This document shows positions 9,128-58,687 of a stretch of 64,000 bases of DNA, one piece after another. A model generated the notes under the pieces. The model saw nothing but the letters and a program-made list of their open reading frames with translations, was not told where the DNA came from and ran no database searches. The DNA is from Azonexus sp. (GTDB taxonomy: Bacteria > Pseudomonadota > Gammaproteobacteria > Burkholderiales > Rhodocyclaceae). Position 1 is the stretch's first letter. Every line of letters begins with the position of its first letter. The DNA is taken from assembly GCF_023150235.1 (NCBI RefSeq), contig NZ_JAKLLH010000002.1:150676-214675 (forward strand), read 5' to 3'. Made by a program: the position numbers and the translations under genes.

Positions 9128-9173
9128 GGTTTTTGCCGATTTTCACGGTCGACCGTGAAAACCGGCAAAAACC
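9128..9173. repeat. Large copy of the dispersed GTCGAC palindrome, bidirectional terminator
   Basis: A 46-base inverted repeat centred between 9150 and 9151, with 23-bp arms and a single mismatch (9139/9162). The centre is TTTTCACGGTCGACCGTGAAAA. It lies between the convergent ATPase gene and the indolepyruvate oxidoreductase gene and can form a very stable hairpin in RNA from either strand. It is the most extended member of the repeat family in this window. Confidence 0.9.
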
Positions 9174-9191
9174 CGGGGGCGCGGCCAAGGC

Positions 9192-12100
9192 TCAAGCCGG
9201 GCCTGGCTTTGCCAACGTCGCGCGCAGCCTTGTGCGTAGCGGGTAGGCCTGGGTGGCGGCCTTGGCCCGCAAGAGGCCGAAACCACGGACCTCGGCGGGC
9301 CAGGCGGCGAGCTGGTGGGCTTCGCTGTCGGGGCCGTGTTGCAGGATCAAGTCGAGGTCGGCCTCGTAGGCGGTGAGCAGTTCGCGGTCGAGGGCTCGTT
9401 CGCTGCTCAAGCGGAGGGGATCGAACCAGCGCCCGCGCCAGTGCCGGCCGGCGGCCAGTACGCGCAGCCAAGGCAGTAGCCAGGGACCGAAAGCCTGCTT
9501 GCGCGGCCGTCCGTCGGCGGCCTCGCGGCGCCCCCAGGGCGGCACCAGGTGGAAGCTGGGACGCAAGGCCCGACCGGGCACCAGCGACTCGAATTGTTCG
9601 GAGAGCCGGGTAAGAAAATCGCTTTCGACGAACAGGCGAGCGACCTCGTACTCGTCCTTGGGCGCCAGCAGCCGCGCGTACTGCACGGCCACCAAACGGG
9701 TCAGCGCATCGTCGCCGAGTGCTCGCAAGGCCGCGATGCGGCGCTGGTAGCGGGCCGCCAGTTCGCTGTCCTGATAGGCGGTGAGGCGCTGTGCCCGATG
9801 TTCGATCAGCGCGTCGAGGGGGATTTCGCCCGCCGGTAGCGGCTGCAGCGGGCCGGCCAAAGCGGCGACCCGTTCGGGGAAGACGGCAGCCCGCCGCCCC
9901 CAGTTGAACGCTTCGAGATTGGCCGCGACCGCCGTGCCGTTGAGTTCGATTGCGCGCTCCAGTGCCGCCAGGCTCACCGGGACCAAGCCCTGCTGCCAGG
10001 CATGGCCGAGCAGCAGCAGGTTGGTGTAGATGGCATCGCCCATCAAGCGCAGCGCCAGCCCCTGGGCGTCGATGAAGCGCACCGCAGCGGTGCCGACGGT
10101 ATCGACCAGGCGTTGCTGCAAGGCCGCCCCCGGCAGTTTCCAGTCGCGCTGGCGGGTGAAGTCGGCGGTCGGCGTTTCGGCGCTATTGACCAGCACCCGG
10201 CTTTGCCCGGCGAGCAGTTTGGACAGCGCCTCACTGCCGGCGCTGACCACCAGGTCGCCGCCGATCAGCGCGTGCGCCTCGCCGGTCGCGATCCGCACCG
10301 CGTGGATGTCCTCCGCCCGGTCGGCGATGCGCAGGTGCGAGAAGACCGCCCCGTACTTCTGCGCCAGCCCGGTCATGTCGAGCACCGAGACGCCCTTGCC
10401 GTCGAGGTGCGCGGCCATCCCGAGCAAAGCCCCGACGGTGATCACGCCCATGCCGCCGACCCCGGTGAGCAGCAGGTTGTAGGGCGCGGCGGTCGCCGGC
10501 AAGGCCGGCAGCGGCAAAATTCCCCAATTTTCACGGTCGACCGTGGAAACCGAGTCTTTTCCGGCATCAGGCGGCGCCAGTCCTGCGCCTTTCTTCAAGC
10601 GCACGCCGTCGAGGGTGACGAAGCTCGGGCAGAAGCCCTTGAGGCAGGAGAAATCCTGGTTGCAGGCCGACTGGTCGATTGCCCGCTTGGTCCCGAACGG
10701 GGTTTCCAGCGGCACCACCGACAGGCAGTTGGATTGCCGCGAGCAATCGCCGCAGCCCTCACAAATCTCGGGATGGATCACCACCCGCCGCGCCACCGGC
10801 GGCAGCTTGCCGCGCTTGCGCCGCCGCCGCGCCTCAGTGGCACACATCTGGTCGTAGATCAGCACCGAGACGCCGGGGTACTCGCGCAGTTCGCGCTGGA
10901 CCCGGTCAAGTTCGTCGCGATGGACAATCGGCAAGGTCTGCCCGCCCGGCGTGGCGAGGTCAGTGATTTCGGCGTATTTATCGGGATCGTTGCTGACGAT
11001 CACCATTTTCTCGACGCCTTCCGCCGCCAGCTGCCGGGTCAGGCGCGGGATGCTCAGCTGGCCATCGACCGGCTGGCCACCGGTCATCGCCACCGCGTCG
11101 TTGTAGAGAATCTTGTAGGTGATCGCGACCTTGGCCGCCAGCGCCTGGCGGATGGCCAGGATGCCGGAGTGGAAGTAGGTGCCGTCGCCGAGGTTGGCGA
11201 AGATGTGCTTTTCCTCGGTAAACGGTGCCTGGCCGACCCAGGGCACGCCCTCGCCGCCCATGTGGGTATAGGTCGCGGTGCTGCGCCCCATCCAGGTCAC
11301 CATGTAGTGACAACCGATCCCGGCCACCGCCCGTGAACCTTCCGGGACCTGGGTCGAGGTGTTGTGCGGGCAGCCCGAGCAGAAGTGCGGCTTGCGCTCG
11401 GCGAGCACCAGTGGTGTCTGGCTGGCCTTCTGCTTCTGTGCGATCAAATCGAGCCGGGCATGGATCGCCGGCGAGGTGAAGAAGCGGCCGATACGCCCGG
11501 CGATCACCTTGGCAATCGTCGCCACCGGCAGCTCGCCGGTCGCCGGCAGCAGCCAATCGGCGTGCGCCAGATAGCCGCCCTCGCCTTCCACGGTCCACTC
11601 GCCTTTTTCGTCGAATTTGCCGATCACTCGCGGGCGCACGTCGCGATTTTGTGCGTCTGTCCAGTTATAGAGCTCCTCCTTGAGCTGGTATTCGAGCAGC
11701 TGCCGCTTTTCCTCGACCACCAGGATTTCCTCCAGCCCTGCGGCGAAACGACGGACGCCTTCCGGCTCCAGCGGCCAGACCATCCCGACCTTGTACAAGC
11801 GGATGCCGATCTGTGCCGCCAGCGCCTCGTCGATACCCAGTTCGTCGAGCGCCTGGCGCACGTCGAGATAGCTTTTGCCGGCGGTGAGGATGCCGAGCCG
11901 GGGCTGTGGCGAGTCGATCACCAGGCGGTCGAGGCGATTGGCCCGGCAATAGGCCAGCGCGGCGTAGAGCTTGAGGTTGAGCAGGCGCTTCTCCTGCTCC
12001 AGCGGCGGGTCCGGCCAGCGGATGTTGAGGCCGTCCGGCGGCAGCGCGAAATCCTGCGGCAGCACGATATCGACCGCCGCCGGATCGACATTGACCGAGG

Positions 12101-12755: not shown

Positions 12756-12884
12756 CGCGGTCTCCTCCCTGTGCATCGGCCCTGGCAGCCGGTCGGTGTG
12801 GCGCCGTGGGCGACGCTACGCACCCGTGAGCGTTTGAACCCCGCCGCCGGCAGGAGGTTCCATCTGGAATCCCGGGCCGGTCGC

Positions 12885-12973: not shown

Positions 12974-14849
12974 GTGCGCGTGAGGCGATGGGGAGGGTGA
13001 AGCCGAGGTGTACCGTGAAGACGCTGCCTTCGCCTTCGCGGCTTTCAACGGTCAGGCGTCCGCCCATCCGCTCGACGAGCTGCCGCGAAATCGCCAGTCC
13101 CAGGCCGGCGCCGCCGTAGGCCCGGGTCAGCGAGCCATCGGCCTGGGTGAAAGGCTGGAAGATCTGCTCCACCTGGTCGGCCGGAATGCCGACGCCGGTA
13201 TCGCTGACGACGATGGCCGTTTCCAGCTGGCCGGGGGTTTTTGCCTCGATGCGCAGGTCGACCGTGATCATGCCCTGAGCGGTGAATTTGATGGCATTGC
13301 CGATCAGGTTGAGCAAGACCTGACGGATGCGCAGGGCATCGCCGAGCACATCCTGCGGCAGGTCGGCGGGCAAGCCCAGGCGCAGTTCCAGCCCCTTGCG
13401 CTGGCATTGCGGAATCATCAGGCGCACCACGTCGCCGATGACCGCGCCGAGTGCCATGGGCTGCTGGCGGATGAGCAGCTTGCCGGCGTCGAGGCGCGAC
13501 ATTTCGAGGATGTCGCTCAGTATTCCGAGCAGGGAACGCGCCGAATCCAGCGAAATCTGGATGGCACGCCGGGTCTCCTCATCCTCCGTCGTCATCAGCG
13601 CGATTTCACCCATGCCGATGATGCCGTTCATCGGCGTGCGCAGCTCGTGGCTCATGTTGGCGAGAAATTCGCTCTTGGCGCGGTTTGCTCCCTCGGCGGC
13701 CTCCTTGGCCTGCTCCAGGCTGAGCATGATCCGGTTGCGTTCGGCCTCGCTGGCGGCCAGCGCCTCCTCGGCCTGGTTGCGGGCGGCGAGAAAACCGTTG
13801 AAGGCGGTGGCCACGGTCTGGATTTCGGCGCTCCCGCTCACCGTTACCGGGGCGGATGCCTCGCCGGGACGCATGCCGTGCGCCCGTTCGTCCATGGCGT
13901 CGGCCAGCGTGGCCAGGGGGGCGAACAGGCGGCGAGCCAGCCACCAGACCATCGGCATGGCGAGCAGGATGATCAGCAGCGTCACCAGCGCCATGTCGCG
14001 CTGAATCTTGGCCACCGGCTGCAGCGCCTGTTCCGCCGGAATCACCGAGGCCAGTATCCAGCCGGTACTGACCAGCCGCTTGAAGGTGTAGAAACCGTGC
14101 AGCCCCCGGTGATTGACCCCTTCCAGCGTGCCTTCGTAGCCGGCCAGGGCGCGGGCAAGGACCGGGTTTTCCTGCTCGCCGGGGATTTTCTGCAGGATCA
14201 GCGTCCGGTCCGGGTGGGCGATGAAGTGATGGTCGGAAGAAACAAGGTAGAAATAGCCGCGTTCTCCGAGCTTGCGATTGTTCAATTCGCCGATCAGGTT
14301 GGGTTTGTGCAGATTGAGCACGCCGCCGACGATGGCGGCAAGCTCGCCGCGCGCATCGAGAACCGGCGCGGCGATGACAATGATCGGCTGGCGTGTGGCC
14401 TTGCCGAGAATGGGCTGGGAGGTGAAGGGCTGGCGCGTGGTCTGCACGGCCTGGATGTAATCGCGGGCCGACATGTCCAGCCCGCGCCGCCCGGCTTTTT
14501 GCGGCCAGTCCACCAGGAGCACGCCGCGTGCGTCGAAAATGTAGAGGTCATCGAACAGCGCCAGCAATTCGTTCTTGCCCTGGAGGTGGCGCTCGAGGGC
14601 CGCCAGGTCGCCCAGGTGCTCGGCGGGCAGGGTGCGTGCCGAGTGCAGCAGAACGTTCTGGCGCTCCTCGATCTTGTCGTCCAGGTGTTCGGCCAGGGCG
14701 CTGAGAAGCGCGAACTGCTCCTTCTCGATCCCGGCCTGAAGGTCGGAGCGCAGGGAATGGAATTGTGCGAACGACTGCGCGATCAGGAGCAGGATGGCGA
14801 TGGCAGCGGCGCCGAGCGTCAGTTTGAGCTTGAGGCTGAACGAGGACAT
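12966..14849 (-). CDS. Membrane sensor histidine kinase with periplasmic Cache domain
   Basis: A 627-residue kinase. Membrane helix 1 is at about 8-28, a large periplasmic region (about 30-280) has dCache character ([28 protein letters not shown]), and helix 2 is at about 286-306. A HAMP-like linker and coiled coil follow, then HisKA with His401 in [13 protein letters not shown] and the ATPase domain with N-box [10 protein letters not shown]1 box DTGVGIP and G2 box [10 protein letters not shown]. No receiver domain is attached and no response regulator gene is adjacent, so the partner is elsewhere. Cache domains usually bind small organic ligands. The gene is upstream of the indolepyruvate oxidoreductase in the same direction, separated by the tandem repeat. 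Confidence 0.9.
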
Positions 14850-18729: not shown

Positions 18730-19805
18730 GTATCAAAAACTGGCTTTTGCCACGGTCGACCGTGGGAATCGGCTTAATTGCCATCGCGCTGATCGCGCTG
18801 CCCTTCGCCCTCGCCACCGGCGGCCAGGCCTGGGTGCGGATCGCCAATTTCGCGATCCTCTACGTCTTCCTCGCCCTCGGCCTGAACATCGTGGTCGGTC
18901 TCGCCGGCCTGCTCGACCTCGGCTATATCGCGTTCTACGCGGTCGGTGCCTACACCTGGGCGCTGCTCGCCAGTCCGCACTTCGGGCTGCACCTGCCGGT
19001 CTGGGCGATCCTGCCGATCGGCGCCGCCTGCGCCTGCGTTGCCGGCGTGCTGCTCGGCTCGCCGACATTGAAACTGCGCGGCGACTACCTGGCCATCGTC
19101 ACCCTCGGCTTCGGCGAGATCGTGCGCATCTTCATGAACAACCTGAATGCCCCGATCAACATCACCAACGGCGCCCAGGGCATCACCCTGATCGACCCGG
19201 TCAAGATCGGCGACTTCAGCTTTGCCGGCAACAGCACCATTTTCGGCCTGACGCTGAGTGGACCGCAGAAATACTATTTCCTGCTGGTCGCGCTGGCCTT
19301 GCTGGTGATCGTGGTCAACCTGCGCCTGCAAAATTCGCGGATCGGCCGCGCCTGGCAGGCAATCCGCGAGGATGAAATCGCCGCCAAGGCGGTCGGGATC
19401 AACACCCGCAACGTCAAGCTGCTCGCCTTCGCGATGGGCGCTTCGTTCGGCGGCATTGCCGGCGGCGTCTTCGCCGCGATGCAGGGCTTCGTCTCGCCGG
19501 AAAGCTTCTCGTTGATCGAGTCGGTGATGATCCTGGCGATGGTGGTGCTCGGCGGCATGGGCCACATCCCCGGCGTGATCCTCGGTGCAGTGCTGCTGGC
19601 GATCCTGCCGGAAGCCTTGCGCTACGGCGTCGCGCCGCTGCAGCAACTACTCTTCGGCAAGGTGCTGGTCGACCCGGAAAGCCTGCGCATGCTGATCTTC
19701 GGCCTGGCGCTGGTGCTGGTGATGCGCTTCAAGCCGGCTGGTCTGTGGCCGGCGCCCGAGCGCAAGGCTCACGGCAACCCAAACCCGGAGGAGGGACGCG
19801 CATGA
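18726..19805 (+). CDS. livM: Branched-chain amino acid ABC transporter permease LivM
   Basis: A 359-residue permease with about nine helices. Family motifs are clear: FLALGLNIVVGLAGLLDLGYIAFYAVGAY, LRGDYLAIVTLGFGEIVRIF, and the coupling region AIREDEIAAKAVGIN. The second half matches LivM, with FAAMQGFVSPESFSLIES. Four-base ATGA overlaps occur at both ends (livH and livG), so translation is coupled. Codons 8-13 come from a complete copy of the dispersed palindrome (18749-18762), giving PRSTVG just before the first helix. This suggests the palindrome inserted at, or evolved within, a tolerant N-terminal segment. Confidence 0.96.
   Translation: MSIKNWLLPRSTVGIGLIAIALIALPFALATGGQAWVRIANFAILYVFLALGLNIVVGLAGLLDLGYIAFYAVGAYTWALLASPHFGLHLPVWAILPIGAACACVAGVLLGSPTLKLRGDYLAIVTLGFGEIVRIFMNNLNAPINITNGAQGITLIDPVKIGDFSFAGNSTIFGLTLSGPQKYYFLLVALALLVIVVNLRLQNSRIGRAWQAIREDEIAAKAVGINTRNVKLLAFAMGASFGGIAGGVFAAMQGFVSPESFSLIESVMILAMVVLGGMGHIPGVILGAVLLAILPEALRYGVAPLQQLLFGKVLVDPESLRMLIFGLALVLVMRFKPAGLWPAPERKAHGNPNPEEGRA
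18749..18762. repeat. Palindrome copy in the livM N-terminal codons
   Basis: CACGGTCGACCGTG, the exact 14-base core of the dispersed palindrome, lies in frame 24 bases after the livM start and encodes part of PRSTVG. Confidence 0.9.

Positions 19806-20579: not shown

Positions 20580-20587
<8 letters not shown>
19802..20587 (+). CDS. livG: Branched-chain amino acid ABC transporter ATPase LivG
   Basis: A 261-residue ATPase. Walker A GPNGAGKTTF, the LivG-specific GIARTFQNIRLFGNMSALEN, signature LSYGEQRRLEIARAL and Walker B LLCLDEPAAGMN are all present, with the H-loop His in LIEHDVKLVM. LivG forms the ATPase pair with LivF. The ATG at 19802 is preceded by GGAGGAGGGACGCGC and overlaps the livM stop; an earlier in-frame start would lie deep in livM. 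The gene ends eight bases into livF. Confidence 0.96.
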
Positions 20588-21281
<694 letters not shown>

Positions 21282-21282
21282 T

Positions 21283-21312
21283 ACGGTCGACCGTGCCGGC
21301 GGCGTTTTTTTA
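21283..21312. repeat. Palindrome copy and possible terminator after livF
   Basis: ACGGTCGACCGT at 21283-21294 starts one base after the livF stop codon. It is followed by GCCGGCGGCG and a run of seven T residues (21305-21311). The combination looks like a terminator built on the dispersed palindrome. Confidence 0.65.
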
Positions 21313-22922: not shown

Positions 22923-23084
22923 GGCGGGTATCCGCAAGAGAAGTAAGTCGCGGATTGTAGGGGCATCGCCCCGGACCTCGCCAGCGTGAGGCGGGGAAAG
23001 ATGCTTCGGAAAAACAGAAGCGGCGGGCCGGGGGCGGGCGAACGGAGGTCCGCTCGGCTTGCGACGGCAAATTCGGCCAGGATG

Positions 23085-23096
23085 ACGGTCGACCGT
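23085..23096. repeat. Palindrome copy upstream of the methyltransferase gene
   Basis: ACGGTCGACCGT, part of GACGGTCGACCGTGAAAATGCGG, in the 249-base gap between the divergent terC and methyltransferase genes. Apart from this copy no other element was recognised in the gap. Confidence 0.8.
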
Positions 23097-23171
23097 GAAA
23101 ATGCGGAAAAAGGCGCTTGTATCGAGCTTGGCAGGCAGCGGAGGCCCGTCGATCTGGCATAGAATCGCCGC

Positions 23172-26919: not shown

Positions 26920-27399
26920 ATGTCGGACGATCAGACTCACGACCCACTCAATTTCATGCGCAACCTCTGGGGCAACATGGGCTTTTCGCTCCCCGGCATG
27001 GTGACGCCGACTTTCGACGTCGAGGAACTCGACAAGCGCATCAAGGACATGAAAGCCGTCGAAGGCTGGCTGCGGATGAACCTCTCGATGCTGCAGATGA
27101 CCATCCAGAGCCTGGAAATGCAACGCACGACGGTGTCGACCGTGCAGGCGATGGGACGCATGGCATCCGACGCCGCACGTTCGGCCACGGAAGAGCGCAA
27201 TACCGACGAAACCACGGTCGACGCCCAGAAAAGCGCATTTTCCGAAGCAGCAATGTGGCCTTGGCAGATGATGCAGCAAATGCGCGAGCAAATGCAGCAG
27301 CACGCCGAAACCGCCGCCCAGACCGCCCAGGCGGAGACCACCCCGGAAACCGAATCCCCCACCGGCAAATCGCCGCGACGCGGCAGGAAGACCGACTGA
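26920..27399 (+). CDS. phaM: PhaM-family polyhydroxyalkanoate granule regulatory protein
   Basis: A 159-residue protein matching the PhaM family. The conserved N-terminal half reads DPLNFMRNLWGNMG, then PTFDVEELDKRIKDMKAVE and LRMNLSMLQMTIQSLEMQ (about 30-75). It is followed by a coiled, glutamine/methionine-rich stretch and a basic tail KSPRRGRKTD. In Ralstonia, PhaM binds PHB synthase and the nucleoid and governs granule number and segregation; the basic tail fits DNA contact. The ATG at 26920 has GGAGG nine bases upstream and gives the expected family start. A phasin gene lies 9.5 kb away, so storage genes are scattered. Confidence 0.88.
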   Translation: MSDDQTHDPLNFMRNLWGNMGFSLPGMVTPTFDVEELDKRIKDMKAVEGWLRMNLSMLQMTIQSLEMQRTTVSTVQAMGRMASDAARSATEERNTDETTVDAQKSAFSEAAMWPWQMMQQMREQMQQHAETAAQTAQAETTPETESPTGKSPRRGRKTD

Positions 27400-29640: not shown

Positions 29641-29674
29641 GAAAAAGCCGAAAGCTTTCGCCTTCGGCTTTTTC
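29641..29674. terminator. Bidirectional terminator downstream of ybiT
   Basis: Twelve-bp stem GAAAAAGCCGAA/TTCGGCTTTTTC around a ten-base loop, giving a T run on both strands. It lies 35 bases beyond the ybiT stop codon (minus strand). The right arm runs into CACGGTCAACG, a degenerate half of the dispersed palindrome. Confidence 0.85.
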
Positions 29675-29708
29675 ACGGTCAACGCCCGGAAACGGGCAAA
29701 AACCAGTT

Positions 29709-31331: not shown

Positions 31332-31388
31332 GGTGTTTCCGATCTCTGAAATAAACGCAAAATAGTCGGCAATTTTACCTGCTTTCGC

Positions 31389-31398
31389 CGGTCGACCG
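31389..31398. repeat. Palindrome copy between ybiT and gshA
   Basis: CGGTCGACCG, followed by TGGG, in the 159-base region between divergent ybiT and gshA. The core is intact but the outer A/T arms are not. Confidence 0.75.
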
Positions 31399-31490
31399 TG
31401 GGCATTGAAGCTGGCGCTTTCATCCCCATATAAGAAAGCCCGCTGTAAGATGCTTTCCGACTTCTTTCCGCCGCAAGGCAAGGCTGATTC

Positions 31491-32777
31491 ATGGTTCCAC
31501 ATCTCACCACCGCGCTGAGCGGTCCCCTGCTCGAACTCGAACGCCGTTTTCTCGCGGCCAGCCCGCAGATCGAGCACTGGTTGCGCGGCCAGTGGCTGGA
31601 ACACACGCCCCCCTTCTACTCCTCGGTCGATCTGCGCAATTCCGGCTTCAAGCTGGCGCCGGTCGATACCAACCTGTTTCCTGGCGGCTTCAACAACCTG
31701 AATCCGGCCTTCCTGCCCTTGTGCGTGCAGGCGGCGATGAGCGCGATTGAAAAATTCTGCCCGGAAGCGCGCAGCCTGCTGCTGATCCCGGAAAACCACA
31801 CGCGTAACGCCTTTTACCTGCAAAACGTTGCCCAGATCGCCGCCATCCTGACCCAGACCGGGCTCAACGTGCGCATCGGTAGCCTGATCCCCGACCTGCA
31901 GGCGCCGCTCACGGTCGACCTGCCGAATGGCCAGAATTTGTTGCTCGAACCGCTGGTGCGCAAGGGCAACCGGATCGGCGTCGCCGGCTTCGAGCCCTGC
32001 GCGATCCTGCTCAACAACGACTTGTCGGCCGGCATCCCGGCCATCCTGCAGGGGCTGGACGAACAGTTCGTGCTGCCGCCGGTGCATGCTGGCTGGGCGG
32101 TGCGCCGCAAGTCCAACCACTTCGCCGCCTACGACGAGGTCGCCAACACCTTTGCCAAGGAGATCGGGATTGATCCGTGGCGGATCAATCCGGCCTTCTC
32201 GGTCTGCCGCTCGATCAATTTCCACGAGCGCCAGGGCGAGGAATGCCTGGCCGCCAACGTCGCCGCCGTGCTCGACATCGTGCGCGAGAAGTACAAGGAA
32301 TACGGCATCAACGAGACGCCCTACGTGGTGGTCAAGGCCGATGCCGGCACCTACGGCATGGGGGTGATGACGGTGCGCGACGCCGACGAGGTGATCGCCT
32401 TGAACCGCAAGCAGCGCAACAAGATGAGCGTGGTCAAGGAAGGCCTGGAAGTCTCCGAGGTGATCATCCAGGAAGGCGTACATTCCTTCGAAACGGTCAA
32501 TGAAGGCGTCGCCGAGCCGGTGGTGTACATGATCGACCGCTACGTCGTCGGCGGTTTCTACCGCGTGCATAGCGGCCGGGGCAAGGACGAAAACCTCAAC
32601 GCGCCGGGGATGCACTTCGAGCCGCTGGCCTTCGAAACCGGCTGCAACCTGCCCGACTACCGCTGCGGCAACCCCGATTCGCCGCCCAACCGCTTCTATG
32701 CCTACGGCGTCGTCGGCCGCCTGGCCTGCCTCGCCGCCGCGCTGGAGCTGGAACGGACGGCGCCGGACGCAGTCTGA
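31491..32777 (+). CDS. gshA: Glutamate-cysteine ligase, PF08886 type
   Basis: A 428-residue ligase of the GshA family found in beta- and some gammaproteobacteria, unrelated in sequence to E. coli GshA. Recognisable stretches include [20 protein letters not shown], an ATP-grasp-like region [17 protein letters not shown] (about 283-299), and [13 protein letters not shown]. It makes gamma-glutamylcysteine from glutamate, cysteine and ATP, the first step of glutathione synthesis. The gene is six bases upstream of gshB, so both steps are in one operon with apbE. The start ATG at 31491 is preceded by AAGG. Confidence 0.93.
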
Positions 32778-35049: not shown

Positions 35050-35502
35050 TTATTCCGGTTGGCGCGAATCGATGCTCAGGGTGACCGGCCCGTCGTTGAC
35101 CAGCGCCACCTGCATGTCGGCGCCAAAAATCCCCGTGGCTACGGGCCGGCCGAGGCCGCTTTCGAGCCGGCTGACAAAACGCTCGAACAGAGGCTGGGAA
35201 ATGTCGCCGCGAGCAGCTCGATTCCAGGACGGACGGTTGCCTTTCCTGATTGAGGCGTAGAGGGTGAATTGCGATACCGCGAGAATTTCACCGCCCACTT
35301 CCTGCACACTGCGGTTCATGATGCCTTCGGCATCGCAAAACAGGCGCAGGCGCAGGAGTTTGCCCGCCATCCACTCGAGATCGGCTTCCTCGTCGTCGGC
35401 CTCGAACCCGGCGAGCAGGAGCAGCCCGGCAGCGATTTTTCCGCAAATCCGTCCGTCGACCGTGACGGACGCCGCCGTCACCCTTTGTACAATGACCCGC
35501 AT
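35050..35502 (-). CDS. dtd: D-aminoacyl-tRNA deacylase
   Basis: A 150-residue DTD that removes D-amino acids (and glycine mischarged on tRNA-Ala) from tRNA. The active-site motifs are SQFTLYA (about 79-85) and, near the C-terminus, [12 protein letters not shown], the latter supplying the cross-subunit Gly-Pro proofreading pair. Length and start MRVIVQRV are typical. It is convergent with the gshA operon and reads from a start near 35502; a variant of the dispersed GTCGAC inverted repeat (35451-35470) lies within its first codons. Confidence 0.95.
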
Positions 35503-35682: not shown

Positions 35683-35804
35683 CCGCCCTTCAGGGCGGTG
35701 GGAGCCGACCCCGGCCTGAAGGCCGGGGTTTCAGGCGACCGTTTTGGGAGGGGATGCAAACCCCTTCCCAAACATGTTTGACCGACAGGCATGAATGCCT
35801 GTCG
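35683..35804. repeat. Cluster of four consecutive hairpins
   Basis: Within 122 bases four stem-loops follow each other: CCGCCC/GGGCGG (35683-35698), ACCCCGGCC-TGAA-GGCCGGGGT (35708-35729), TTTGGGAGGGG/CCCCTTCCCAAA (about 35743-35772) and CGACAGGCAT-GA-ATGCCTGTCG (35783-35804). The gap between dtd and the PilZ gene (35503-35850) holds nothing else. The first two resemble subterminal hairpins of IS200/IS605-type elements or REP clusters; no transposase remains. They may also end the PilZ-STAS transcript. Confidence 0.7.
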
Positions 35805-36691: not shown

Positions 36692-36720
36692 CAAAAAAAT
36701 GCCCGCACAAGGCGGGCATA
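36692..36720 (-). terminator. Intrinsic terminator downstream of the phasin gene
   Basis: Eight-bp stem ATGCCCGC/GCGGGCAT with a five-base loop; read on the minus strand it is followed by a run of seven T residues. It lies 154 bases beyond the phasin stop, in a gap (36526-36873) where nothing else was recognised. Confidence 0.85.
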
Positions 36721-36873
36721 AATCCATTCTTGGAAATGGAGGAGACAGAGCGCATTATGCAGCAGGCTCTTGTGCGATGCAGCAATTATTTTGTTGCAGT
36801 CTGTAACGGTCAGTAATCATTGTTGTTGCTGTGCACAATTTTCCTCCGGGGCGGCCGGGGGGCGTGGCGAAAC

Positions 36874-37413
36874 TTATTTACGCACACCCTTGGTCATCGC
36901 TTCCGCCGCTTGTGTCACGGCAGAAAAATTGGCCTGCGCCAGTTCGGCAAACTGCCGGCTCATTTCGTTCATTCGGGAAAATGAAGAGTTCATGTTGTCG
37001 ACCGCGGACTGAATTCCGCCGAAGCCACCCACGGTGCCCTGCGGCAGCGAGCGGGCGGATTGCTGGACGGCTTCGGCCAGGGACTTCTGGAAACCAGCGA
37101 ACTGTGCCTCCATCAGCTTGGTCAATTCGCCCTGACCCTGGGTGGCAATCTCGTAAATCGAGCGCGAATAGCCGACGGCCTTTTCCAGTGCCGGCTGCGC
37201 CAGCGATGACTGGATATCGACGGCTTCCTTGGCGTTTTTGGCGGCCAGCACGGCCTTGGCGCCGGAAGCGGAATCCTCGATGGCGGCACGCGCCGTGCTC
37301 AGGTTCAGTGCGGCGATGCGTTCGGCCGAGGCCAGGGCGACATTGGCTACCGCCTGCAGGGATTCGACAGCCGCCTTGTTGGCGGTTGCCAGCTGTTCAA
37401 GATTGATCGACAT
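36874..37413 (-). CDS. phaP: Phasin family protein
   Basis: A 179-residue phasin, the main coat protein type of polyhydroxyalkanoate granules. It opens with MSINLEQLATANKAAVESLQ and continues as a largely amphipathic helix rich in alanine, glutamine and glutamate, with LAQPALEKAVGYSRSIYEI in the middle. Length and composition agree with PhaP1-type phasins of betaproteobacteria (about 180-190). It has its own strong terminator, as expected for an abundant protein. Ribosome site GGAGG precedes the start. Together with phaM at 26920 it shows that the organism stores PHA. Confidence 0.9.
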   Translation of the reverse strand: MSINLEQLATANKAAVESLQAVANVALASAERIAALNLSTARAAIEDSASGAKAVLAAKNAKEAVDIQSSLAQPALEKAVGYSRSIYEIATQGQGELTKLMEAQFAGFQKSLAEAVQQSARSLPQGTVGGFGGIQSAVDNMNSSFSRMNEMSRQFAELAQANFSAVTQAAEAMTKGVRK

Positions 37414-37526: not shown

Positions 37527-38132
37527 TTACATCCCCAGCGAGTCGAGCAGATTGTCGCGATCTTCTTCGGGGTCGAATTCGGCGATCTTGATGAATTCAG
37601 TACGGTCAACTGCCAGTTCGAGGTAAAAAATATTGTTCTTGCCGGTAAAGAAGCTGACGCGCCGGGCTTCCGGTGCATCCAGATTGGCACCAACGCTGAG
37701 GGTGACCTGCTTGTTGATAACCAGCATCTTCGGCTGATTCTGCGTGATGTGGGTTTGCAGTTCGCGCTCGACGCGGCCGGTGAAGTCGCCGACCATCTGG
37801 TTCATCAGTTCGCCCATCACATTGCTGACTTCGTCCGAAGTATAAGAGACCGCCAGTTCCTCGCGGGCCATGCCCATGTTCAGCAGGTAGGATTCGTAGA
37901 GTTCCATTGCCGCCTGGGCGGAAAAGTTGAGTACGACAAGACCGGAAAAACCGCCATCGAAGAGTACGAAGCAGCCGATATCGGGCTTCAGGCAGGTCTT
38001 GCTGATTTTCTGCACCATGCCGGAGTAGCGAATCGGCTGCTGCGTGGCCGTGGTCAGCACGCGGCTGACCGAATTGCACAGGGTTTTCAGTAAATCCTCG
38101 GTGCCGAATACGACAGGGGCTTGCATGTTCAT
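37527..38132 (-). CDS. DUF3334 family protein, CheX-like fold
   Basis: A 201-residue soluble protein of the DUF3334 family. The pattern CFVLFDGGFSGLVVLNFSAQ (about 54-73), VSNVMGELMNQMVGDFTGRV (about 102-121) and VSFFTGKNNIFYLELAVDRTE resembles the CheC/CheX/FliN-type phosphatase fold, but the E-x-x-N active pair of CheX is not securely located. Function is unknown. It lies next to a stand-alone CZB protein (divergent, 144 bases apart), which fits a link with chemotaxis or c-di-GMP signalling. Confidence 0.75.
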   Translation of the reverse strand: MNMQAPVVFGTEDLLKTLCNSVSRVLTTATQQPIRYSGMVQKISKTCLKPDIGCFVLFDGGFSGLVVLNFSAQAAMELYESYLLNMGMAREELAVSYTSDEVSNVMGELMNQMVGDFTGRVERELQTHITQNQPKMLVINKQVTLSVGANLDAPEARRVSFFTGKNNIFYLELAVDRTEFIKIAEFDPEEDRDNLLDSLGM

Positions 38133-39692: not shown

Positions 39693-40895
39693 TCAGCCAG
39701 TGTGGCCGAGGATGCCGCCCTCTTGCAGACGTTCGATGTCGCTATCGCCATAGCCGGCTTGATGCAGGATTTCCCGGTTGTGCTCGCCACTGCGCGGCGC
39801 GGGCCGACGGATTGCGAATTCGTGCTGCGACAACCTGAACGGCGGGGCGAACTGGGTGAGCTCCGGGTCGGCCGGGTGCTGGCGGATGACCATGCGGCGG
39901 GCGACGATCTGTTCATTTTCCAGGGCTTCCTCCGGCGACAAAATCGGGGTCACGCAGCAGTCGACCGTGGCAAAGCGACTGGCCCACTCATCGCGCCCGC
40001 GCGTGGCGAACAATTGCGCCATGTCTTCGCGCAGTTCCGGGTCGAATTGGCGGGCAAGCCAGTCGGGCCGTTCGAGAACCTTGCAGCAGCCTTGCCAGAA
40101 TTTTTCCTCGAGCGCGCCGACTGCCATATGTCGTCCATCGCGGCAGCGATAGACGGCGTAGCATGGCAGCCCTCCGGACAAGACATCGCCGCCGGCGGGT
40201 GCCGCATGCCCGGACTCTGCCAGGCGCAACATCGCGAAATAGGTGTGGGCGAGGACGCTGTCGGTCATCGCTACATCGACGTGACGTCCGCGCCTAGTGC
40301 GTTGCGCCTCGATGACGGCGGCGAGAATGCCGGTGGTGGCGGTCAGCGCGCCGCCGAGCAGATCGGCAATCTGGATATTGGGAATCGCCGGATCGCCGCC
40401 AGTGCGGCCGATCTGGCCGAGGATGCCGGCGTAGCCGAGATAGTTGATGTCGTGTCCGGCAAGGTCGCGATAGGGACCGTCCTGACCGTAGCCGCTGATT
40501 GCGCAGTAGACGATGCGCGGATTGAGCGCTGCAACCGTGTTGTAGCCGATACCGAGTTTGTCGACGACGCCGGGGCGGAAACTTTCAATGATCACATCGG
40601 CGTCGCGGGCCAGGCGCAGAAAGACCTCGACACCCACGGGCTGCTTCAGGTCGAGACAGAGGCCGCGCTTGTTGCGGTTGATCATGCGGAAATAGGCACT
40701 GTCCTTGCCGTCGGTGGTTTTTCCAGTGCCTAGGCTGCGGGCGTAGTCGCCTGCGCCTGGGTCTTCGATCTTGATGACGTCGGCGCCGAGGTCGGCCAGA
40801 TGGAGCGTGGCCACCGGGCCGGGCAGGAGTCGGGTCAGGTCGAGGATGCGAATCCCGGAGAGCGGGCCGCAGCCGGATTCAGGCTTTGTCTGCAT
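39693..40895 (-). CDS. CaiB/BaiF family (class III) CoA transferase
   Basis: A 400-residue CoA transferase. The N-terminal Rossmann part begins GIRILDLTRLLPGPVATLHL with LADLGADVIKIEDPGAGDYAR. The catalytic Asp expected after the LNRNKRG region is present as INRNKRGLCLDLK with the downstream SFRPGVVDKLGIGY, and Asp in VAMTDSVLAH is in the family position (about 199). The closest look is to alpha-methylacyl-CoA racemase and fatty acid racemase types (YAGILGQIGRTGG). The ATG at 40895 has AGAGGA in front; an upstream frame would be antisense to other coding. It belongs beside acyl-CoA ligase genes, so it may activate or epimerise branched or aromatic acids. Confidence 0.85.
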   Translation of the reverse strand: MQTKPESGCGPLSGIRILDLTRLLPGPVATLHLADLGADVIKIEDPGAGDYARSLGTGKTTDGKDSAYFRMINRNKRGLCLDLKQPVGVEVFLRLARDADVIIESFRPGVVDKLGIGYNTVAALNPRIVYCAISGYGQDGPYRDLAGHDINYLGYAGILGQIGRTGGDPAIPNIQIADLLGGALTATTGILAAVIEAQRTRRGRHVDVAMTDSVLAHTYFAMLRLAESGHAAPAGGDVLSGGLPCYAVYRCRDGRHMAVGALEEKFWQGCCKVLERPDWLARQFDPELREDMAQLFATRGRDEWASRFATVDCCVTPILSPEEALENEQIVARRMVIRQHPADPELTQFAPPFRLSQHEFAIRRPAPRSGEHNREILHQAGYGDSDIERLQEGGILGHTG

Positions 40896-42733: not shown

Positions 42734-42753
42734 GTCGTTTTCTCCGTTTTCTG

Positions 42754-42763
42754 CGGTCGACCG
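42754..42763. repeat. Palindrome copy between livF-like and PaaK-like genes
   Basis: CGGTCGACCG followed by TGGAAA, located 20 bases upstream of the PaaK-like start. A second small palindrome CCTCGCCGGCGAGG follows at 42783-42796. The pair fills the 150-base gap downstream of the livF-like gene. Confidence 0.75.
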
Positions 42764-42883
42764 TGGAAATGGCGGTTTTTTGCCTCGCCGGCGAGGTTTC
42801 AGGGAAAAGTGGGGCAAACCGGCGCCGCCACGCCACCTGGGCGGCGTGGTCGAAGCTGTTTGCGGGGAATGACTGGGGGCGGG

Positions 42884-52825: not shown

Positions 52826-54064
52826 ATGATGCAACGCACAAAAATGCTTCTTGCCTGTTGCCTGGCCTCGGCGCTGTCGCTGGGCCAGGCCGCAGAATAC
52901 GATCTGCCGGCACTGGAAAAGATGGCGCTTTCCAGTAGCAGGACGGCGCTGGCTGCTCGCGATCAACTGCTGGCGGCACGTTATGCCGCCGAGTCGGCTC
53001 GTGCTTTTCCTAATCCCGAGTTGGAATATCTGGCCGGCAATCAGCGCAGTCGTGCCGGCCTCGGCGTGGCCGGCGATGCTCGCAGCGTTTCCCTCAGCCA
53101 GCCGCTCGATCTGCCCTGGCGGCGTATGCCGCGAATTGCGGCGGCGGATGCAGGTTTCGAGGTGGCAACGGCTGCCGCCGGGATGCAGGAGGCCGATCTT
53201 CTGGTCAGCCTGCGGACTCGCTATTTCAATCTGCTGCGCCGCGAGGCCGAGTTGAAAAATGCCCGCGAAGACGTGTCGACCGTGGAAGAAATGCACTCAC
53301 GCATTGCCATGCGCGTGCAGACCGGCGAGGCTGCCCGTTTCGAGCTGATCAAGGCTGATGCCGAATTGCTCAATGCGCGCAAGAATCTTCAGGCGGCGGG
53401 TGTTCGGGTTGAGCAGGCTCGTTCTCAACTGCGGCAGGCGGTGGGCGATGGCCTGCCTGCCGCTTTCACCCTCACCGGGCGCCTGCGCGATGTGCCGCAG
53501 CTTCCCGAGCTTGAGCGTTTGCGTTCGGAAATGCTGCAATACAGTCCGGACCTGAAGCGTGCGCAGGCCGAGGTTCAGCGTGCGGAACGGCTGCTGGAGC
53601 TGGAGAAATCCCTGCGCCTGCCGGCGGTGGCGCTGCGTGCCGGTGTTGACGAGGACCCGGAACTGCGAACTTCGCGCCTTGGGTTGCAGTTCAGCATTCC
53701 TCTCTGGGACCGGCGCCAGGCGCCGCTTGCCGAGGCGGCGGCCCAGCTCTCGCGCAGCCGGCATGAATTCGAGGGGCAGCGTTTTTCCCTCGCACAGGGG
53801 CTGGAAATTGCCTACCAGCAATATGAAATTGCCCTGGCGCAGGTGAGTGCGCTGGAATCCGGGATCGTTCGCCAGGCCGAAGCGGCTTTGCGCGTGGCGA
53901 CGGCTGCCTATCGTTTTGGCGAGCGTGGATTCCTTGAAGTCCTGGACGCCCAGCGTGTATTCCGTGCTGCGCGGGCCGAATTGATCCTTGCCCGGCACGA
54001 ACTGGCTGGCGCCTGGATCGAGATTGAACGATTGAGAGCTTTGCCCAAGGAAGAAAAACAATGA
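52826..54064 (+). CDS. Outer membrane efflux protein of a heavy-metal RND system (TolC/CzcC type)
   Basis: About 412 residues with a signal peptide (RTKMLLACCLASALSLGQAA). The body is the long helical OEP repeat of the TolC family, including RNLEV-like repeats such as ELEYLAGNQRSRAG and, in the second half, LGLQFSIPLWDRRQAPLAEA. It would form the outer-membrane tunnel for the tripartite pump. Two adjacent ATGs (52826 and 52829) are possible. A half copy of the dispersed palindrome (53275-53287) gives the VSTVEE residues. Its last codon overlaps the adaptor gene (ATGA). Confidence 0.9.
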   Translation: MMQRTKMLLACCLASALSLGQAAEYDLPALEKMALSSSRTALAARDQLLAARYAAESARAFPNPELEYLAGNQRSRAGLGVAGDARSVSLSQPLDLPWRRMPRIAAADAGFEVATAAAGMQEADLLVSLRTRYFNLLRREAELKNAREDVSTVEEMHSRIAMRVQTGEAARFELIKADAELLNARKNLQAAGVRVEQARSQLRQAVGDGLPAAFTLTGRLRDVPQLPELERLRSEMLQYSPDLKRAQAEVQRAERLLELEKSLRLPAVALRAGVDEDPELRTSRLGLQFSIPLWDRRQAPLAEAAAQLSRSRHEFEGQRFSLAQGLEIAYQQYEIALAQVSALESGIVRQAEAALRVATAAYRFGERGFLEVLDAQRVFRAARAELILARHELAGAWIEIERLRALPKEEKQ

Positions 54065-55200
54065 AAAAAGCGCTGATTCTGGCGTTGACCGTGTTCAGCC
54101 TGGCGGCTTGCAAGGAAAGCGCCCGTCAGGAGACGGGGACTCAGGCCAACGATCCTTCGCTGGTGGCGCCGGCAGCCGAACTGCGCGCGCAACTACGCTT
54201 GGGAGTCGTCGACAAGGCCTTGATTTCCGAGACCTTGCGTGTGGCCGGACAGATCGATTTCGATGAACAGCACTTGGCGCGTATTGGTGCCACGGTGACC
54301 GGCCGGGTGACGCAGATCGATGCCCTGCTCGGTCAGGAAGTGAAAAAGGGCGATGTGCTGGCCCGCCTCAATAGCAGCGAACTGTCGAGCCAGCAGTTGA
54401 GCTATCTCAAGGCTCGGGCCGAGCTCGAGTTGAACCGGCGCAATGTCGAACGTGCCCGTGCCCTTTTCGATGCCGACGTGATCAGCGCCGCCGAGTTGCA
54501 GCGGCGCGAAAGCGAGTATCAGATTTCGCGGGCCGAAGCGCGCGCGGCGGCCGATCAATTGTTGCTCCTCGGTGTCACGCAGCAGGCAATCGAGCGTCTG
54601 GGGACGCAGGGGGCGGTCAATTCGGTGACGCCGGTGGTGGCATCGATTGCCGGGGTCGTGGTCGAGCGCAAGCTGGCGCCCGGTCAGGTGGTGCAGCCGG
54701 CGGACAGCCTGTTCGTGATCGCCGATCTGGCACGTGTCTGGGCCGAAGCCGAAGTCCCCGAACAGCAGGTTTCCCAGGTCAAGGTCGGGCAGGTGGTTTC
54801 GATCCTGGTGCCGGCGCTGGGTAACGAAAAGCTGACCGGGAAATTGATTTTCGTCGGCCAGACCGTGAACCCGGAAACGCGTACGGTGCTGGTGCGAACC
54901 GAATTGGATAACCGTGACGGCAGGCTGAAACCAGCCATGCTGGCGAGCATGCTGATCGAGGCACGTCCCGCCGAACGCCTGGTGGTTCCGGCCAGTGCCG
55001 TGGTGCGAGAGAGTGATGAGGACCATGTTTTCGTGATGGTCGATGAGCAATCCTTCCGCTTGGCCAAGGTCAAGCTGGGGCCTGAGCAACAGGGGCGACG
55101 GGTCGTTCTTTCCGGTCTCCAGGGCGGTGAAAAAATCGTCGTCGAAGGCGCATTTCACCTGAACAACGAACGCAATCGCAAGGAAATGGAGGGCGCGTGA
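54061..55200 (+). CDS. RND efflux periplasmic adaptor lipoprotein (CzcB/CusB type)
   Basis: A 379-residue adaptor with lipobox LAAC (Cys at about 17). Features include the beta-barrel/lipoyl halves with VTGRVTQIDALLGQEVKKGD (about 79-98) and VVERKLAPGQVVQPADSLFV, around a helical hairpin (about 110-160) with LNRRNVERARALFDADVISA. The C-terminal part fits the HlyD/CusB family. No N-terminal metal-binding methionine or histidine cluster is visible. It bridges the inner-membrane pump and outer-membrane protein. It overlaps both neighbours by four bases. Confidence 0.93.
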   Translation: MKKALILALTVFSLAACKESARQETGTQANDPSLVAPAAELRAQLRLGVVDKALISETLRVAGQIDFDEQHLARIGATVTGRVTQIDALLGQEVKKGDVLARLNSSELSSQQLSYLKARAELELNRRNVERARALFDADVISAAELQRRESEYQISRAEARAAADQLLLLGVTQQAIERLGTQGAVNSVTPVVASIAGVVVERKLAPGQVVQPADSLFVIADLARVWAEAEVPEQQVSQVKVGQVVSILVPALGNEKLTGKLIFVGQTVNPETRTVLVRTELDNRDGRLKPAMLASMLIEARPAERLVVPASAVVRESDEDHVFVMVDEQSFRLAKVKLGPEQQGRRVVLSGLQGGEKIVVEGAFHLNNERNRKEMEGA

Positions 55201-58200
55201 TCGAATCTCTCGTCCGTGCTGCACTCAAGCAGCGTCTGGTCATCGCGGTGATTGCTTCCGTGCTGTTCTTTTTTGGCCTGGATGCCGCGCGCAAACTCTC
55301 GGTCGACGCCTTTCCCGATGTGACCAATGTCCAGGTCCAGATTGCGACCGAGGCACCGGGGCGTTCGCCGGAGGAGGTCGAACGTTTTGCCACTGTGCCG
55401 CTGGAAGTGGCGATGACCGGCTTGCCGGGTCTGGAGGAAATGCGCTCGCTCAACAAGCCGGGCTTGTCGCTGATCACCCTGGTGTTTTCCGACAAGACCA
55501 ATGTCTATTTTGCCCGGCAATTGGTGATGGAGCGCTTGCTCGAGGTTACGCCGAAGCTGCCGCAGGGGATCGTCCCGGTTCTCGGGCCGGTATCGACCGG
55601 CTTGGGCGAGGTGTACCAGTACACCCTGGAGCGCCCCGATGACGGTGAGCGGACCCTGTCGCAAGAAGAATTGATGCAGCGCCGGACGGCACAGGACTGG
55701 GTGGTGCGCCCGCTCCTGCGCTCGATTCCGGGGGTGGCGGAGATCAATTCGCAGGGCGGTTTTGCCAAGCAGTACCAGGTACTCGTCAACCCGGAAAAAT
55801 TGCGCCATTACGCGTTGACCGTGGGCGACGTCTATCAGGCGGTTGGCCGCAACAACGCCAATGCCGGCGGTGGCGTGCTGCCGCAGTACGCCGAGCAGTT
55901 CCTGATCCGTGGCGTCGGCCTGGTGCGCGATCTCGATGACTTGCGGATGATCGTGCTCAAGGAAAAGGATGGCGTGCCGGTGCGGATCGGCGATGTCGCG
56001 GAAGTCCAGATCGGGCATGAGGTCCGCCAGGGGGCGGTGGTCAAGAATGGCACCACCGAGGCGGTCGGCGGGGTGGTGATGATGATCGCCGGTGGTAACG
56101 CCAAGGAGGTCGTTAGCCGGATCAAGGGGCGTGTCGATGAGATCAATCGCAAAGGCATGCTGCCCGATGGGTTGAAGATCGTTCCTTATTACGACCGGTC
56201 GGAATTGGTCGATGCCGCCTTGTGGACCGTGACCAAGGTCTTGCTCGAAGGCGTGGTCCTGGTCGTGGTGGTGCTTTTCCTTTTCCTCGGCGATGTGCGT
56301 TCGTCGCTGATTGTTGTGGCCACCTTGCTGTTGACGCCCCTGCTGACCTTCATGGCCATGAATCACCTGGGGATTTCTGCGAATCTGATGTCCTTGGGCG
56401 GCTTGGCGATTGCGATCGGCCTGATGGTCGATGGTTCGGTAGTGGTCGTCGAGAATGCCTTTTCGCTCCTTGGTCGGGCGGCAAAAAGCGGCGAGAGTCA
56501 GACGCGGATCATTCTGCGGGCGGTGGTTGAGGTGGCGACCCCGGTGATCTTCGGTGTCGGCATCATCATTCTCGTGTTCCTGCCGCTGATGACCTTGCAG
56601 GGGATGGAAGGCAAGATGTTTGCGCCGCTGGCCTATACCATTGCCATCGCGCTGGGGATTTCCCTTGTTTTGTCGCTGACGCTGACGCCGGTGATGTCTA
56701 CTTATCTGCTGAAGCCGCCGGCCCATGACGGCGATCACGATACGCGCCTGATCGCGGCGATGAAGCGTCGCTACCTGGCGCTTCTGCAGCTGGCGCTTAA
56801 CAATCGGCGCAAGACGGTGCTGGCGGCGGTGGCGACTTTTGTGTTGACGCTGGGTTTGTTGCCCTTGCTGGGAACCGCGTTCATCCCTGAAATGAAAGAG
56901 GGCTCGGTTGTCCCCGGGATCAACCGGGTACCCAATATTTCGCTTGATGAGTCGATCAAGATGGAAATGGAGGCGATGCGGCTGGTGATGCAGATTCCCG
57001 GCGTCAAGTCGGCCGTGTCGGGCGTGGGGCGTGGAGAGTCTCCGGCGGACCCGCAAGGACCTAATGAATCGACGCCGATCGTGAGTCTCAAGCCGCGTAG
57101 CGAATGGCCGTCCGGTTGGACGCAGGACGATATTCAGGACGCAATGCGCGACAAGCTGAAGGCTTTGCCCGGCGTCCAGATCGTCATGGCGCAGCCGATT
57201 TCCGATCGGGTGGATGAAATGGTCACCGGTGTCCGTTCGGATATCGCAGTCAAGGTTTTTGGCGACGATATCGAACAACTGCGGCGGATTGCCGGCCAGA
57301 TCGGCAAGGTGGCGCAGAGCTTGCGGGGAGCCCAGGACTTGCGGATCGAGCGGGTCAGCGGGCAACAGTACCTGACGGTCGAAATCAATCGTCAGGCGAT
57401 TGCACGCCTCGGACTTAACGTTGCCGATGTCAATGATCTGCTCGAAACCGCGGTCGGCGGCAAGGAAGCGACCGAGATCTTCGAGGGTGAGCGACGTTTC
57501 CCTGGCGTGGTCCGCTTGCCGGAGCGCTTCCGCAATAATATCGAGGCCATTTCCAATATCCTGATCACGTCGCCGAACGGCGCCCAGGCTCGCCTGGCCG
57601 ATGTCGCCAATATCCGTGTGATGGACGGGCCGGCGCAGATTTCGCGGGAGCTCGGCAAACGCCGCATCGTGGTCGGCGTCAACGTCAAGGATCGCGACCT
57701 GGGCGGTTTCGTCGCCGAACTGCAGCAGAAAGTCGAGCGTCAGATCAAGCTGCCGGAAGGGTATTACCTCGAATGGGGCGGTCAGTTCCAGAACATGGAG
57801 CGGGCGCTCGGGCATTTGACGGTGATTATCCCGATCACCATCGCCGCCATCTTCTTCCTGCTGTTCCTGCTCTTCAATTCCTTGCGCTACGCAACGCTGA
57901 TCATCACCGTGCTGCCATTCGCCTCGATTGGAGGCGTCATCGGCTTGTTCGTCACCGGCGAATACCTGTCGGTACCGGCGTCGGTCGGCTTCATTGCGCT
58001 GTGGGGGATCGCGGTGCTGAACGGGGTAGTGCTGGTTTCCTATATCCGCTCCTTGCGGCAGGAAGGCCGCAGCGTTGCCGAGGCCGTGATCGAGGGGGCG
58101 ACGCTGCGCTTCCGGCCGGTGATGATGACGGCGACGGTGGCGATGCTGGGCCTGATTCCCTTCCTGTTCTCAAGCGGCCCCGGGTCGGAGGTACAGCGAC

Positions 58201-58307: not shown

Positions 58308-58651
58308 AGGAGATCAAGGCCGTAGTCCGTCCGAACAAGCTTGCACTGCTGCGCGAGGCTCTGGTGCTGATGCCCGGCTTTCCGGGAATGACGGTAACCC
58401 AGGTCGAGGGATGCAGCGCGCCTTCCCGGCATGTGCAGGCCAAGGTCAGGATCAAGGATGAGCTGACCGATTATTCACCCAAGGTCAGGATAGAAATCGT
58501 CGCTCCCGACGAAGTTGCCGAAGCCATATTCCGGCGTATTGCCGAAGTGGCACAAACCGGCCATTACGGCGATGGCCTGGTCTGGATGACCGACGTGGGG
58601 AAGGCGGCTTTCGTTTTCAGAACCGCGCCGGGTAGCGACGACGGGCTCTGA
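58304..58651 (+). CDS. PII-like signalling protein of the heavy-metal RND operon (PII-NG type)
   Basis: A 115-residue protein with a PII-like ferredoxin fold. MKEIKAVVRPNKLALLREAL resembles the GlnB N-terminus, DYSPKVRIEIVAPDEVAEAI matches the strand after the T-loop, and GDGLVWMTDVGKAAFVFRT resembles the C-terminal strand and ATP-contact region. The T-loop is short and lacks the GlnB uridylylation context. PII-like proteins encoded beside heavy-metal RND pumps form a separate group (PII-NG), with nitrogen control unlikely. The ATGA overlap with the pump gene shows it belongs to the operon and probably senses a nucleotide or metal state. Confidence 0.82.
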   Translation: MKEIKAVVRPNKLALLREALVLMPGFPGMTVTQVEGCSAPSRHVQAKVRIKDELTDYSPKVRIEIVAPDEVAEAIFRRIAEVAQTGHYGDGLVWMTDVGKAAFVFRTAPGSDDGL

Positions 58652-58657
58652 TTTTTG

Positions 58658-58687
58658 CCCTTTGACACGGTCGACCGTGTCAAAGGG
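58658..58687. repeat. Perfect 30-base palindrome between convergent genes
   Basis: CCCTTTGACACGGTC followed by its exact reverse complement, centred at 58672/58673. The inner 14 bases are the dispersed core CACGGTCGACCGTG; the outer arms differ from those at 9128. It stands in a 42-base gap between the RND operon and the convergent unknown gene and probably blocks transcription both ways. Confidence 0.95.

Follow-up and report, generated by a model that had tools for sequence, protein, structure and literature searches.

A dispersed palindrome of Azonexus: probably a self-specific DNA uptake signal in double form

A 64-kb stretch from the genome of Azonexus sp. (G000; 3.42 Mb in 50 contigs), here called the window, carries a short perfect palindrome, CGGTCGACCG, in several dispersed copies, and the question is what these copies are. 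The genus is placed by the NCBI taxonomy in the Betaproteobacteria, Rhodocyclales. All eight copies reported in the original prediction were verified, at positions 9146, 10534, 18753, 21284, 23086, 31389, 42754 and 58668; for the third one, the span of 18749-18762 was slightly off, the perfect palindrome occupying 18750-18765. Five half copies were likewise confirmed, at 5690, 29674, 39960, 53275 and 60261. No other 10-base palindrome of the window is as common as CGGTCGACCG, the runner-up having four copies. Its strong over-representation stands: dinucleotide-preserving shuffles give an expectation of 0.20 copies, so that the 0.06 assumed earlier was somewhat low, and none of 100 shuffles reached eight. 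Counted genome-wide, as had been proposed, the 14-mer CACGGTCGACCGTG occurs 187 times, against 0 for its reversed control.

Sequences surrounding the core were analyzed in a 464-kb sample (63% GC), composed of the window and 20 further stretches; since these were picked for holding sites, densities calculated from the sample run high. Around the 62 palindromes of the sample, A/T-rich tracts are located on both sides, at +8..+12 and +18..+22 from the centre, the outer one reaching up to 93% A/T, while hardly any signal is left past about +24. The arms are thus not free, contrary to the earlier view that they vary and only the core is conserved. Perfect arms of at least 13 bases per side were found in 11 of 73 distinct sites, where shuffled arms give about 0.7. 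Among half sites, the 55 of the GTCGACCGTG form, which lack the left CG, have two far-tract positions at 100% A/T, and the 39 of the GTTGACCGTG form have two at 98%; in both sets, the left side keeps the far tract together with a weaker near one, the right side a weak near tract only. In a scan of all 7-mers for A/T tetrads located a constant number of bases away, CACGGTC at distance 25 ranked first, both in G000 and in a sister species (G101).

The real unit, missed at first, is the non-palindromic half, with its A/T tracts on one side, the palindrome being its double form. The unit spans 29 bases: CACGGTCRAC, then a weaker A/T tract and, about ten bases on, a strong one; the tract centres lie about 14-15 and 24-25 bases downstream of the first C in CGGTC. 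Since GTCGAC is self-complementary, two cores can overlap into CACGGTCGACCGTG, and the palindrome consists of two CACGGTCRAC cores overlapping head to head; opposed cores in G000 share these six bases, which results in a perfect 14-base palindrome. The pattern CACGGTCRAC-N15-WWWW occurs 908 times in G000 (467 forward, 441 reverse) and 872 times in G101 (429 forward, 443 reverse), with no control match in either genome; the CGGTCRAC form with tract is present in 1148 copies in G000, versus 23 for the control. Single, non-palindromic sites are 96 of the 162 motif sites in the 464-kb sample. In the same sample of site-bearing stretches, the core was found in 183 perfect and 162 one-mismatch copies, or 126 and 41 when accompanied by the tract, whereas the reversed control word gave 4 and 97. 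Copies identified in the window are reported in Table 1.

Table 1. Copies of the motif in the window; remarks on the sister species refer to G101.
Feature	Position	Strand	Remark
Double motif, gap between convergent genes	9129..9172	.	Perfect palindrome 9140-9161; arms differ in sister species, still palindromic
Double motif in gene 9192-12776 (-)	10517..10560	.	Gap-free conservation in sister species
Double motif, 5' end of permease gene	18736..18779	.	Conserved in sister species; inside the gene if translation starts at 18726, whereas our gene caller starts it at 18762
Double motif, just past stop of gene 20580-21281	21267..21310	.	+ half TACGG variant; - half without full far tract
Motif within CGGTCGACCG palindrome, inside gene 22167-23762 (TerC family)	23069..23097	-	
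Motif within CGGTCGACCG palindrome, inside predicted gene 29709-32792	31372..31400	-	
Double motif, intergenic, TGCGG / CACGG halves	42737..42780	.	- half conserved in sister species
Double motif, gap between convergent genes	58651..58694	.	30-base perfect palindrome 58658-58687; both arms altered in sister species
Single motif, TACGGTCAAC variant with tract	1664..1692	+	
Single motif	3633..3661	+	Conserved in sister species
Single motif	5690..5718	+	Absent from sister species, alignment with small gaps
Single motif	13238..13266	-	Substitutions in sister species
Single motif	27116..27144	-	Conserved in sister species
Single motif	27213..27241	+	TACGGTCGAC in sister species
Single motif, CACGGTCAAC form, intergenic	29674..29702	+	
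Single motif	31910..31938	+	
Single motif	35436..35464	-	
Single motif, CGCGGTCGAC variant with tract	36978..37006	-	
Single motif, TACGGTCAAC variant with tract	37601..37629	+	
Single motif	39941..39969	-	Conserved in sister species
Single motif	53256..53284	-	Conserved in sister species
Single motif, CACGGTCAAC form	54065..54093	-	Substitutions in sister species
Single motif, CACGGTCAAC form	55795..55823	-	Core conserved in sister species
Single motif	60261..60289	+	Conserved in sister species

The expectation that relatives should hold copies fails for the exact 14-mer, which is almost absent from the congeners (35 genomes with 0-17 copies each), and is borne out for the underlying motif. 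For the latter, 76 genomes of the Azonexus group, 70-100% complete, were surveyed with the pattern CGGTCRAC-N15-WWWW, the first two bases being left free: 40 of them are rich, with 391-1785 sites each, G030 having 1384 and G074 1785, and 36 are poor, with 9-159, while reversed controls do not exceed 31 per genome. Out of 249 genomes drawn from the family, 241 come from 67 other genera; none of these exceeds 27 sites, which is about what the controls give, and the CACGGTCRAC form is present 0-3 times in 40 genomes, one from each of 40 other families of the order. The motif without its first two bases is a genus trait, restricted to the Azonexus group. A longer form of the pattern was found in six stretches of named genomes, five from Azonexus or Dechloromonas and one from Bryobacterales; the last match was attributed to chance, as it lacks a tract and the 8 kb examined contain no other site, and a plasmid search with it returned nothing useful.

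The two bases preceding CGGTC define dialects: G000 and G101 have CA, G030 has mostly CA or GA, and G074 and G008 have TG. In small samples, AG is the commonest prefix of G062, and CGGTCAAC is the preferred form in G066 and G111, where the near tract is stronger. These samples comprise 60-464 kb and 15-162 sites per genome, the last few being small. No alternative dialect was detected in the motif-poor genomes G017, G067, G034, G070, G015 and G100, searched over 80-100 kb each. When 30 of the 76 genomes are placed on a tree of one gene, which has many weak forks, the distribution of rich (300 sites or more) and poor genomes requires no fewer than four changes, versus about 10 with shuffled labels.

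As the motif shows most marks of the known uptake signals, USS and DUS, at a lower density, we read it as a probable DNA uptake signal of the genus Azonexus, specific for self DNA, with the palindrome as its double form. To our knowledge, DNA uptake signals are known only from the Pasteurellaceae and the Neisseriaceae, the latter being betaproteobacterial like Azonexus. DUS have reportedly led, in one study, to the finding of ICEs. As described in PMC1626085, USS and DUS have a density of about one per kb, no bias in orientation, fairly regular spacing, pairs in opposition, a non-coding excess along with many genic copies, and more perfect than one-mismatch copies; the Hin USS has two A/T motifs 3' of its core, USS arise by mutation, and uptake sequences are stated there not to be known in other transformable bacteria. 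The USS is described as a 9-nt core plus two discontinuous downstream A/T regions, thought to aid melting and kinking (PMC12616744), and rigid, slightly bent A/T tracts have been suggested to favour uptake (PMC7811141). Other sources report uptake signals inside terminators (PMC1852404), a frame and position bias of uptake signals in genes (PMC2346458) and, for Simonsiella muelleri, dialects and overlapping dyad pairs, without frame preference (PMC3630211).

Like the Pasteurellaceae USS (Hin AAGTGCGGT, Apl ACAAGCGGT), the Azonexus motif combines a short strict core with two A/T-rich segments on the 3' side, the near one being weak in G000, and it shares with them the presence in both orientations, the non-coding excess, the opposed pairs, the clade dialects and the origin by point mutation (PMC1626085). 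Spacing is somewhat regular in USS; here it was significantly more even than random in one of three contiguous stretches (p 0.012; 0.095 and 0.233 in the others). The dialect TGCGGTCRAC of G074 and G008 has TGCGGT in common with the Hin USS core. On the other hand, the prefix of the Azonexus core CGGTCRAC is variable (CA, TG, AG, others), unlike the USS global consensus ANNNGCGGT, and its tracts are more distant from the core, their centres being separated by about 10 bases instead of the 12 of the Hin USS (PMC1626085). The overlap of opposed cores in G000 and the betaproteobacterial host are further differences. Neisseriaceae DUS (GCCGTCTGAA, receptor ComP) resemble the motif in their dialects, which there extend across a family, and in their terminator pairs (PMC1852404), and those of S. 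muelleri in their overlapping dyad pairs (PMC3630211); the DUS core, however, is unrelated, and PMC1626085 presents DUS without flanking A/T motifs, whereas Azonexus has flanking tracts.

If the motif is an uptake signal, its core would be recognised by a cell-surface receptor associated with type IV pili, the A/T tracts would bend or kink the DNA for entry into the outer-membrane pore, and the DNA would be handed on to ComEA and ComEC. Recombination of preferentially taken-up fragments would then slowly enrich the genome in the signal (molecular drive). At the ends of genes, opposed pairs probably also act as intrinsic terminators, which would explain their compensated arms. We also favour, with some reserve, the wider view that Azonexus has independently evolved a third system of self-DNA recognition in uptake. 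Its signal would be genus-wide, varying in dialect by species, accompanied by A/T tracts as in Haemophilus and able to form palindromic doubles; about half of the species would hold it in abundance, the others having lost or lacking it, and mobile islands would sit inside comEC in at least two species. It would be a third case beside Pasteurellaceae and Neisseriaceae, with rich and poor species and several dialects within one genus; the origin, drift and loss of uptake signals could then be traced, the receptor could be found by species comparison, and strains of Azonexus and Dechloromonas might prove transformable once the motif is added to the DNA.

Placement of the sites was evaluated on genes predicted by our own gene caller, by which 90% of the 464-kb sample is coding. 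Among the 162 motif sites with tract, 102 fall within predicted genes and 60 outside, which corresponds to a non-coding excess. The 62 palindromes are distributed over predicted genes (26) and convergent (17), co-directional (18) and divergent (1) gaps, where only 2.4% of random positions are convergent; 3 of 15 intergenic single sites lie in divergent gaps. Within genes, 61 of 81 single sites are confined to two frames, a single one taking 33 of the 41 same-strand and 28 of the 40 opposite-strand copies, and the favoured frames read, by codons, TV(D/N) or (S/L)TV. This frame bias and the excess of perfect cores speak against in-gene copies being due to chance.

The part of the original prediction which proposed a protein-binding site is sustained to the extent that the motif is a sequence-specific, conserved site, often within genes. 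It might be bound by an abundant intracellular protein, nucleoid-associated or chromosome-organising, with the A/T tracts serving for bending. Dyad double sites and phased A/T tracts would suit such a protein, but the palindromes nearly avoid divergent gaps, even if some single sites are found there. Conservation in place relative to G101, and the failure of competence genes to track the motif, are in line with it; the prevalence of perfect over one-mismatch cores is unlike regulatory sites, as these are characterised in PMC1626085. Since strand polarity is also lacking over the initial 0.76-0.83 Mb of G101, and since the sites are abundant in only about half of the genus and shift dialect genome-wide, we hold this explanation to be unlikely.

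Intergenic and genic palindromes differ in folding. Intergenic ones show a mean energy of -19.7 kcal/mol (n=36), versus -12.4 for random intergenic DNA as the control, while genic ones reach -14.2 (n=26), on a level with random coding DNA at -14.5. Among the 36 intergenic palindromes, 30 have a T-rich tail on one side or both, but so do 14 of the 26 genic ones. Strong folding of the intergenic copies, placement at convergent gene ends and compensatory changes in the arms are features expected from a family of intrinsic terminators having a loop-proximal sequence in common. Since most sites are genic, and genic palindromes do not fold better than random, termination appears to be a secondary use; terminators as the only explanation were rejected as very improbable, in agreement with the initial judgement that the pattern is not simply that of a terminator.

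The window was compared with 160 kb of G101; 50.3 kb could be aligned, at 84% identity, leaving 6 of the 25 window cores unaligned. Of the 19 aligned cores, 15 are conserved in place, three differ by substitutions only and one lies in an alignment with small gaps; no inserted unit was apparent at any of these sites. All 15 G101 cores located in aligned parts are also present in the window. At the two palindromes between convergent genes (9144 and 58666), the core and the position of the tract are kept, and both arms have changed, remaining complementary. For the rich and poor sister pair G030 and G069, only two sites were alignable, both with substitutions, one remaining a site in both genomes. 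The alignments indicate that copies change by substitution, not by insertion.

REP and BIME elements are dispersed palindromes with many intergenic copies. A mobile palindrome of REP or MITE type, copied by a transposase, would account for copy number and palindromy, and young copied elements typically have a strict consensus too (PMC1626085). The Azonexus unit, in contrast, is non-palindromic and mostly single, its in-gene copies keep the reading frame, and neither insertion boundaries nor shared flanks past about 24 bases from the centre are seen. With no inserted unit among the 19 sites aligned to G101, this explanation was rejected and is given scarcely any credence; the suggested enzyme-maintained REP-like element is thus unsupported.

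Strand polarity was evaluated in the complete genome of G101, where the first 100 sites extend to 831 kb on the + strand and 758 kb on the - strand, and against local GC skew in the sample, where G-rich segments hold 55 forward and 62 reverse sites, and C-rich ones 17 and 14. A strand-polar guide, KOPS- or Chi-like, was rejected, the sites showing no polarity over the initial 0.76-0.83 Mb of G101, where a stretch symmetric about the origin would hide it, or relative to local skew in the sample. A restriction-modification, repair or Chi-like recombination motif, which the genus-limited occurrence and high copy number would suit, is extremely improbable, given a 29-base footprint with A/T tracts and this lack of polarity.

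Several results speak against the reading as an uptake signal. Competence genes fail to follow the motif, and its copies, at 0.34 per kb in G000 and 0.48 per kb in G074, are sparser than the about one per kb of USS and DUS. The lack of another dialect in the six poor genomes sampled, the two spacing tests of three without significance and the undepleted low-GC bins of G000 also count against it. ComEC was identified in 71 of the 76 genus genomes, the five misses being all less than 90% complete, and a ComEA-family match in 75, 67 of them above the curated cut-off; among the nine genomes without a match over the cut-off, five are motif-rich (G003, G014, G066, G082 and G106). Neither gene separates rich from poor species in this set. 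Some rich genomes have a damaged comEC (split in G002; in pieces on two contigs, with a stop, in G008; possibly damaged in G018), and in poor genomes, for example G015, G063 and G070, the gene is apparently whole. G000 itself carries ComEC and ComEA-family matches, as well as 15 prepilin-type matches over the cut-off. A FimT-like protein has matches in 67 of the 76 genomes, close ones (62-71% identity) only in G101, which is rich, and in G028 and G109, which are poor, and therefore does not follow the motif; among ComEC, ComEA and this one FimT-like protein, searched in the 76 genomes, no lead to the receptor emerged. A literature search covering titles and the beginnings of abstracts of open-access journal papers found, among the papers listed, no report of such a motif in the Azonexus group and no title on competence in Azonexus or Dechloromonas.

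An uptake signal would be expected to be scarce in foreign DNA. A 33.7-kb island inside comEC of the rich genome G002 contains no cores, where the mean of that genome predicts about 6.4 sites (Poisson probability about 0.002), the true expectation for this single low-GC island being lower, in view of its GC content of 0.515. Low-GC 5-kb bins of G000 are not depleted of sites.

The competence gene comEC is interrupted in two species (genomes G067 and G002) by some 32-34 kb, at the same place, about position 26-28 of the PF03772 domain. Judging from its sequence, the first protein of the G067 insert looks like a large serine recombinase, and the insert also carries what we take, by the same kind of recognition, to be AAA-, vWA- and phosphatase-like genes. 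The comEC genes of G017 and G018 may be split in the same way.

In the motif-poor genome G069 (118 sites), the sites listed are partly clustered, on contigs C10, C14, C17 and C25, at least 8 of those on C14 falling inside 7.5 kb. Such clusters resemble patches imported from a motif-rich relative. Within the source genome of the window, two palindromes about 1 kb apart on one contig have flanks alike over some 100 bases; here the motif has been carried along in a local duplication.

Besides the palindrome, the source genome contains another dispersed repeat, intergenic and roughly 150 bases long, with one end similar to TTCATCGTAAGACTAACTCCGG and the opposite end to AAACATGTTTGACCGACAGGCATGAATGCC. 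Both ends are present in 9 copies within the 464 kb sample. When the window copy was compared with Rfam, nothing scored above the gathering score.

Coordinates of the described features (G, genome; C, contig; L, sequence stretch)
Feature	Location	Strand	Stretch
comEC split locus, G067	G067:C1:2218607-2251879		L151, L152
comEC split locus, G002	G002:C33:109525-144033		L153, L203
Palindrome pair	G000:C16, 9717 and 10765		L035
~150-base repeat, window copy	about 35650-35800		window
~150-base repeat, similar copies	L017:13865, L018:7820, L020:3227, L020:18474
~150-base repeat, further similar copies	L031:3270, L032:1555, L032:10774, L033:1436
Betaproteobacteria_toxic_sRNA (RF02278)	36693-36747	-	window

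The window also holds an Rfam match to a toxic sRNA family; it scores 51.1 bits, where the gathering score is 50. In the motif-rich genome G030 (stretches L036-L051), a repeat containing the words CTGCCTATC and TTTCTGAGC, which looks like a type I-F CRISPR repeat, is present about 80 times in 310 kb.
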